46,707 nt of DNA, taken from Candidatus Collierbacteria bacterium GW2011_GWA2_42_17. GTDB lineage: Bacteria; Patescibacteriota; Microgenomatia; UBA1400; MFAQ01. This document shows positions 44,478 through 45,916 of the stretch, one piece after another (the first letter of the stretch is position 1; every line of letters begins with the position of its first letter). Made by a program: the position numbers and the translations under genes. Below the pieces are notes generated by a model. The model did not search any database. It was not told where the DNA came from and worked only from the letters and a program-made list of their open reading frames with translations. The stretch is taken from positions 1-46,707 of the forward strand of contig LCDA01000002.1 of the NCBI GenBank assembly GCA_000998275.1, written 5' to 3'.

Positions 44478-44542
44478 TTAAATAAAGGACTGATATAATA
44501 CCTCCCAAACAGCACGTTTCAATTACCACATAAGGAGGAAGA

Positions 44543-44659
44543 ATGCTTGTCAAACGGAAACCAATTCGTATTTTTCCACTCCGTAAAACGGGGTCCTATC
44601 CATCTATCGCCAATCGTCAGATAAAAATATTCCGCATTCCCAAACCTCACATTCGTTAA
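44543..44659 (+). CDS. 38-aa highly basic peptide
   Basis: Extended -10 TGATATAAT, SD AAGGAGGAAGA-ATG, MLVKRKPIRIFPLRKTGSYPSIANRQIKIFRIPKPHIR*, terminator downstream. Confidence 0.6.
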   Translation: MLVKRKPIRIFPLRKTGSYPSIANRQIKIFRIPKPHIR

Positions 44660-44689
44660 GGAAGTGACATGTTTAAGATGCCTCTCTCT

Positions 44690-44714
44690 GAGCCCCTTTT
44701 CGGGGCTCTTTTTT
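44690..44714 (+). terminator. Intrinsic terminator
   Basis: GAGCCCC-ttttc-GGGGCTC-TTTTTT. Confidence 0.9.
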
Positions 44715-44741
44715 GTGCCACAAATCAGATATAATTCACTT

Positions 44742-45350
44742 ATGGATAACAGTTCTTTTGCAGCAAAATGGCAAGCAACCACTCAAAAATTTCTGAATAC
44801 ATCAGATAATCTCGGTAAGGATATTGATCCAAAAATTCTTGATACCGTTATTGCACTAAATCTCTTGGGGGTTAGTACCTCTCAGTCATGCGAAGGCCAT
44901 TTAGATCGCGCCCTTGCTGGTCCTTGGATTATTCTTGGTACTCCTACCGACCTAGAAGTTGAGACAGTCAAAACACAAATGAATACTGTCTACCAAGAAG
45001 CTAATCAAATAAAAACTACTAAACCCAATGATTTTGCCCGTGACGAAAATTATATTCAAAAAATGGAGTTATACCGGGAGCTTCAAAAAAAGACGGTCGT
45101 TCCTACCCAGAAAAATATCCAAAAGCTAATCCCTCTATTAGAGGAATTTTACCAAGCAAGACAATTACCCTATCTCAATCGACTCATTATCAGCAGTGAA
45201 GACTCCCCTATTCCTCGCTTAAGAAACCAAGGACTTTACCTGCAAGACATTGTCGCAAACGAAGCAAGAGCAGCCAATTTATTGGCTTTTCAAGAAGAAA
45301 TGCTTGCTTTCACAAACTTCCTCAAGCAAAAGTTGCAATATACACTATAA
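44742..45350 (+). CDS. Conserved-looking protein of unknown function with SCEGH motif
   Basis: DPKILDTVIALNLLGVSTSQSCEGHLDRALAGPWIIL; TATAAT-N6-ATG start, preferred over 44664. Confidence 0.75.
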   Translation: MDNSSFAAKWQATTQKFLNTSDNLGKDIDPKILDTVIALNLLGVSTSQSCEGHLDRALAGPWIILGTPTDLEVETVKTQMNTVYQEANQIKTTKPNDFARDENYIQKMELYRELQKKTVVPTQKNIQKLIPLLEEFYQARQLPYLNRLIISSEDSPIPRLRNQGLYLQDIVANEARAANLLAFQEEMLAFTNFLKQKLQYTL

Positions 45351-45401
45351 GCTGTTAAAATAGCCCCAAATTGATCGCTTTGATCAGAAAGGAGGCTTAA
45401 A

Positions 45402-45587
45402 ATGTCTGAACCCGAGAACTGCCCCACTTGTGGCGGGAGTGGCCAAGTAACCACCAACGAAGGTCACCAAGTCGGTTGTGGAACCTGCGGTGGAAGTGGC
45501 ACCATCAACCGGCAAGTAAAAGCTCGTTATCCACCTCGCAAGAGGTGGTTTTTTATGTCAAAACTAGCCTCCTGTGATACAATATGA
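45402..45587 (+). CDS. Small DnaJ-type CxxCxGSG zinc-knuckle protein; ORF runs through an internal terminator
   Basis: SD AAAGGAGGCTTAAA-ATG; CPTCGGSGQV...CGTCGGSGTI. Confidence 0.7.
   Translation: MSEPENCPTCGGSGQVTTNEGHQVGCGTCGGSGTINRQVKARYPPRKRWFFMSKLASCDTI
45531..45554 (+). terminator. Intrinsic terminator inside ORF 45402
   Basis: CCACCTC-GCAA-GAGGTGG-TTTTTT. Confidence 0.85.
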
Positions 45588-45592
45588 AGGCT

Positions 45593-45916
45593 ATGAAACA
45601 GAATCTACATCCTGAATACCAAGAAACCACGGTTACCTGCGCTTGCGGGAACGTTTTTACAGTTGGTGGAACATCCGAAGCACTCCATGTCGATGTGTGT
45701 GACAAGTGTCACCCCTTCTTTACCGGCACCCAAAGATTCATCGACTCCATGGGTCGAGTTGATAAATTCATCGCTAAACGTAAAGCCGCTGTCGGCTACG
45801 TCAAAAAAGGCAAAGAGAAGAAAGAAGTCGACACCAACCCCAAAACCCTCAAAGAAATGCTCGAGGCCAAGAAAAAGGCTGAAGCCAAAGTCGCGGAAAC
45901 CAAGGTCGAAGAATAG
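45593..45916 (+). CDS. rpmE: 50S ribosomal protein L31 with charged C-terminal extension
   Basis: MKQNLHPEYQETTVTCACGNVFTVGG...DVCDKCHPFFTGTQRFIDSMGRVDKF; ATG at 45584 is the alternative start. Confidence 0.92.
   Translation: MKQNLHPEYQETTVTCACGNVFTVGGTSEALHVDVCDKCHPFFTGTQRFIDSMGRVDKFIAKRKAAVGYVKKGKEKKEVDTNPKTLKEMLEAKKKAEAKVAETKVEE

Follow-up and report, generated by a model that had tools for sequence, protein, structure and literature searches.

Does a bacterial gene that lacks a stop codon upstream of its transcription terminator reflect a regulatory design, or the accidental loss of the stop? This question is raised by a short open reading frame, ORF 45402, in the window analysed here, a stretch of 46,707 nt (contig LCDA01000002.1, positions 1 to 46,707) from Candidatus Collierbacteria bacterium GW2011_GWA2_42_17. 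The genome comprises 730,827 bp in 15 contigs and is 97% complete; genomes in the phylum sample mostly have sizes of 0.5-1.5 Mb. A first-pass annotation had likened ORF 45402 to arfA of E. coli, a small ORF with a hairpin before the stop within the coding region and hence a non-stop mRNA. The same logic is found in brfA of B. subtilis, where a rho-independent terminator lies within the coding region and the active form of the protein extends only to the U-run (PMC6881298, PMC8012679). ORF 45402 is most simply explained as a young accessory gene that recently lost its stop codon, which looks more likely than an evolved ribosome-rescue switch.

The open frame and its surroundings

The strong Shine-Dalgarno (SD) sequence and the promoter attributed earlier to ORF 45402 are both borne out (Table 1), the former matching the consensus and the latter having an extended -10 that sits 46 nt 5' of the ATG, as across the gene class described below. 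The first in-frame stop is the TGA at 45585, with none earlier 5' of the hairpin or within it, and the frame is indeed open through the terminator as had been stated. The terminator hairpin (45531-45548) folds with -12.8 kcal/mol (z -4.7), and none of 200 shuffled sequences folded equally well. ORF 45402 thus has the hairpin inside the ORF and before the stop, a trait of ArfA/BrfA-type genes. Of the non-stop mRNA claimed earlier, the layout is present in the sequence; the message itself depends on the predicted terminator, and if this works, the mRNA probably ends without a stop codon. The search for ssrA and smpB recommended in the first-pass annotation found both in the genome. The predicted tag peptide of the tmRNA is VNKEDKLLGFTSSEAKSFAPVYAFA, and a tmRNA-SmpB system that could repress the product, another ArfA/BrfA-type trait, is present. 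An alternative genetic code was considered and dropped, as each of the codons TGA, TAA, and TAG closes long ORFs and the genome has two RF-1-domain genes in long frames.

Table 1. Features at and around ORF 45402 (window coordinates).
Feature	Position	Strand	Details
38-aa SD-led orphan gene	44543-44659	+	own terminator (stem 44690-44708), ordinary stop; same gene class as ORF 45402
202-aa gene	44742-45350	+	same species-specific insert as ORF 45402
Promoter-like element	45333-45361	+	TTGCAA-17-TAAAAT with TG (extended -10, TGtTAAAAT, 45353-45361)
Shine-Dalgarno sequence AAAGGAGG	45388-45395	+	consensus; 6-nt spacer to ATG 45402
ORF 45402	45402-45587	+	ATG 45402, 61 codons, TGA 45585-45587
TAA in +1 frame	45517-45519	+	11 nt 5' of stem; candidate for the original stop, assuming a one-base insertion farther 5'
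Predicted intrinsic terminator	45531-45554	+	CCACCTC-GCAA-GAGGTGG + T6; 7-bp stem (45531-45548), GCAA loop; entirely within ORF 45402
rpmE -10 and start	45578-45595	+	TACAAT (45578-45583) and ATG 45593, common to relatives; includes TGA 45585-45587 of ORF 45402
rpmE (ribosomal protein L31)	45593-45916	+

The predicted peptide contains two CxxCxGSG knuckles (C7/C10 and C26/C29), followed by NRQVKARYPPRKRWFF up to the U-run. In a periodic Markov coding model frame 0 scored -0.9 vs -27 and -37 for the other two frames, which are penalised; the score of frame 0 is neutral, so that the model does not prove coding, and such periodic statistics are too weak for locating a frameshift in the ORF. The basic C-terminus emphasized in the first-pass annotation exists insofar as basic residues precede the U-run, but part of it (PPRKRW) is the translated hairpin. 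At least three K/R occur in 3.3% of frames across the terminator set, making this tail mildly unusual.

Downstream of the hairpin the frame runs into the promoter of rpmE. The TGA at 45585 is located 3' of the rpmE -10 and 5' of the L31 start that relatives also use, and is therefore not ORF 45402's own 3' end. As this start follows the -10 by about 10 nt, the rpmE mRNA may be leaderless. The arms TAGCCT...AGGCTA flank the rpmE promoter around its -10 (45565-45595), and in some relatives both arms covary (AGCTTT...AAAGCT in L006).

The gap between eamA and rpmE (44480-45595; compared across L003-L016) is variable. In the only relative of the same genus (G015) the two genes are direct neighbours separated by about 100 bp, so that the segment from about 44490 to 45560, which carries the 38-aa gene, the 202-aa gene, and ORF 45402, is species-specific within the genomes compared. 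Other relatives carry different, unrelated small genes in this spot; in several of them a terminator lies directly 5' of the rpmE promoter, and the ordinary stop precedes the hairpin or coincides with its beginning. Because the spot is filled differently in most relatives, the adjacency to genes for L31 and release factor 1 (rpmE and prfA), to which the first-pass annotation pointed, means little. No Pfam, PHROG, or PADLOC family was found for the 202-aa gene. The 38-aa orphan ends with ...ANRQIKIFRIPKPHIR and ORF 45402 reads ...INRQVKARYPPRKRW at 45505-45545, a likeness that may be due to chance or to a shared fragment. A second, very short candidate frame with an ATG and an SD-like sequence (44669-44731; MFKMPLSEPLFGALF...) also reads through the terminator at 44690-44714.

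Gene class and relatives of the peptide

Genes with a strong SD also carry an intrinsic terminator no more than 60 nt from their stop far more often than expected, with an odds ratio of 29 in this genome (G000; L020-L067) and of 46 in a complete relative (G009; L151-L208), the class counts being approximate because the gene finder was home-made. The association is less pronounced in one half of a genome that belongs to a different family of the order (odds ratio 7.5, 6 genes). As a rule, genes of this class have a -10 resembling TATAAT about 40-60 nt 5' of the ATG, and most other genes in G000 and G009 lack an SD. Only 3 of the 37 class genes of G000 have a homolog in G009, vs about 80% of the genes that have neither a strong SD nor such a terminator, and the class resembles a reservoir of accessory units consisting of one gene each. 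ORF 45402 shares the consensus SD (AGGAGG), the -10 about 45 nt before the ATG, a terminator of its own, and the lack of homologs in relatives. It differs in one trait, the stop before or just inside the terminator hairpin. A stop at most 60 nt 5' of the stem or just inside it is found in 38 SD-led genes of G000 and 105 of G009, in agreement with the earlier remark that in the other SD-led genes the terminator follows the stop; among these about 143 genes the stops lie mostly 5-20 nt 5' of the stem. In our judgement ORF 45402 is the only SD-led ORF of both genomes that passes a whole strong terminator in a non-coding setting, as the five other read-through cases in the scan seem to be due to a hairpin within a longer gene, to a neighbour's terminator seen from the opposite strand, or to a weak SD. 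In two SD-led genes of G000, at C2:103397-104119 (+) and C2:113868-114788 (-), the 5' half of the terminator hairpin contains the stop.

Relatives of the peptide were sought with profiles and with a degenerate pattern that describes SD-led CPTCxGSG starts. No orthologs were detected in the family, order, class, and phylum samples or in GTDB contigs, a search whose sensitivity is limited by short peptides, and the gene is absent from all 15 other genomes of the family. ORF 45402 encodes a short protein that has no J domain and carries two motifs of the C-P-x-C-x-G-[ST]-G type, and in this respect resembles stand-alone two-motif CxxCxGxG small proteins of phages and bacteria, with which it has in common two CPTCxGSG-type knuckles, a short linker, and 31-58% identity over the knuckle part. 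Proteins of this kind with 38 (L109, L118), 43 (L143, L239), and 45 aa (L058) were found, as was a 93-aa protein from the same order (L211) that is SD-led and has a basic tail and an ordinary TAG. On their sequences these six match ORF 45402 in motif and size, which is not proof of orthology. Unlike ORF 45402, such proteins stop normally about 5-11 residues past the second knuckle or, in the case of L211, have a longer tail and an ordinary stop; none of the six has a strong hairpin with a U-run inside. The comparison of homologs proposed in the first-pass annotation thus yielded no ortholog, and its nearest substitutes lack the internal terminator.

The best family match of the peptide (E 6e-7) is PHROG 9961, which comprises phage proteins of unknown function. 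The CxxCxGxG motif spacing of the peptide is shared with the DnaJ zinc centre (PF00684) and anti-TRAP (PF15777), but both matches are below the family cut-offs. That to PF00684 reaches 19.4 bits (Pfam cut-off 32.7), and ORF 45402 has two motifs, not the four of the DnaJ central zinc domain, and no J domain; the anti-TRAP match spans only the first motif. Matches in the PDB include 1exk (E 0.0016) and 3lcz (E 0.11). Tblastn searches of phages and plasmids retrieved only DnaJ-like or distant knuckle matches.

Probable loss of the stop codon

ORF 45402 is probably a young, species-specific accessory gene that has lost its stop, most likely by one recent event. According to this scenario, an accessory gene with its own promoter, consensus SD, short ORF, and own intrinsic terminator would have inserted between eamA and rpmE, coding for a stand-alone two-knuckle peptide that resembles the DnaJ zinc centre. 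The loss may have come about through a one-base insertion that shifted the TAA at 45517 into another frame, through a substitution that removed the stop, or through shortening of a basic tail that was once longer. Most transcripts would then terminate at the U-run, and ribosomes would run to the 3' end of a non-stop mRNA at around codon 51, where tmRNA-SmpB would mark the product for degradation. As an intact ancestor was not seen among the relatives, we infer the mutation, both its direction and its kind, from the present layout. Such a change would be easy to obtain. A stop-losing substitution yields the read-through layout in 104 of 142 class genes, a frameshift within the last 15 codons does so in 56%, and between the second knuckle and the stem of ORF 45402 the codons CAA, AAA, and TAT are each one substitution away from a stop. 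The first-pass annotation had suggested a TAA in another frame at about 45514-45522 as a possible original stop. This TAA exists in the +1 frame at the usual spacing, but no homolog with that stop was found, and because 63% of coding windows contain an other-frame stop within 33 nt by chance, it is weak evidence, although its 11-nt distance from the stem fits the usual stop-stem spacing.

Alternatively, the ordinary stop may still exist in the organism and be masked in the assembly by one false base. The +1-frame TAA would equally suit this explanation, as would the fact that a single gene among about 143 is affected. However, the assembly is of good quality, and no homopolymer longer than 4 occurs between the second knuckle and the stem. 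We regard a sequencing or assembly error as unlikely.

Possible non-stop control and ribosome rescue

Somewhat less likely still is an evolved non-stop control as in arfA and brfA, where selection would keep the terminator in frame and the zinc-knuckle protein, possibly a rescue or stress factor, would accumulate only when trans-translation fails. ORF 45402 resembles both genes in its small size, the hairpin before the stop, the predicted non-stop mRNA, and the tmRNA-SmpB system of the genome; its layout is the same as that of brfA (PMC6881298, PMC8012679), the terminator is strong, and the frame is open to the U-run with preceding basic residues, as a rescue factor might want. The peptide does not match ArfA (PF03889), and the search for arfA recommended earlier was negative for the whole genome. 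Two RF-1-domain genes were found in long frames, prfA near ORF 45402 and a second one that is probably prfB, and a third RF-1 protein was not found in the genome. With no ArfA and only these two genes, the genome is without a known back-up of those kinds, a point in favour of non-stop control. However, ORF 45402 differs from arfA and brfA in coding for a zinc-knuckle protein that has no detected sequence relation to them and shows no sign of a rescue function, neither ArfA nor BrfA being among its solved-structure matches. Without orthologs, neither layout nor sequence is conserved in related species as expected for a gene of this type, the two-knuckle relatives have ordinary stops, and most class members are one mutation away from the same layout. 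The idea of a new, arfA-like ribosome-rescue protein thus finds no backing in family relationships or conservation.

Intrinsic terminators with full efficiency are rare, and the hairpin could be a weak terminator in vivo that lets most transcripts reach the TGA at 45585, in which case ORF 45402 would encode an ordinary 61-aa protein. The strong fold and the T6 tract speak against this, as do the last 10 codons, which are part of the rpmE promoter and give no hint of a designed C-terminus; we consider it improbable. Translation-coupled attenuation, with ribosomes entering the hairpin, blocking termination, and raising rpmE transcription upon expression of ORF 45402, would fit the frame open through the terminator, the overlap of its TGA with an in-frame rpmE ATG (ATGA, 45584-45587), and a Cys-rich peptide encoded 5' of L31, but is very improbable as rpmE has its own promoter directly past the terminator that is common to relatives, the shared L31 start is ATG 45593 and not 45584, and ORF 45402 is wholly missing from relatives.

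If the layout were selected for, ORF 45402 would represent a new non-stop-regulated protein in a lineage without a described example in the surveyed literature. A zinc-knuckle peptide of an ultra-small bacterium would then be made deliberately from a non-stop mRNA, with tmRNA activity setting its level, and the arfA/brfA logic would have arisen once more and independently in a group other than Proteobacteria and Bacillus, a prospect that we rate as doubtful. More probably, ORF 45402 illustrates how easily an accessory gene with tight stop-terminator spacing turns non-stop by one mutation. This calls for caution in sequence-only searches for non-stop genes, and such a one-mutation loss is also a plausible first step toward control of the arfA/brfA type.
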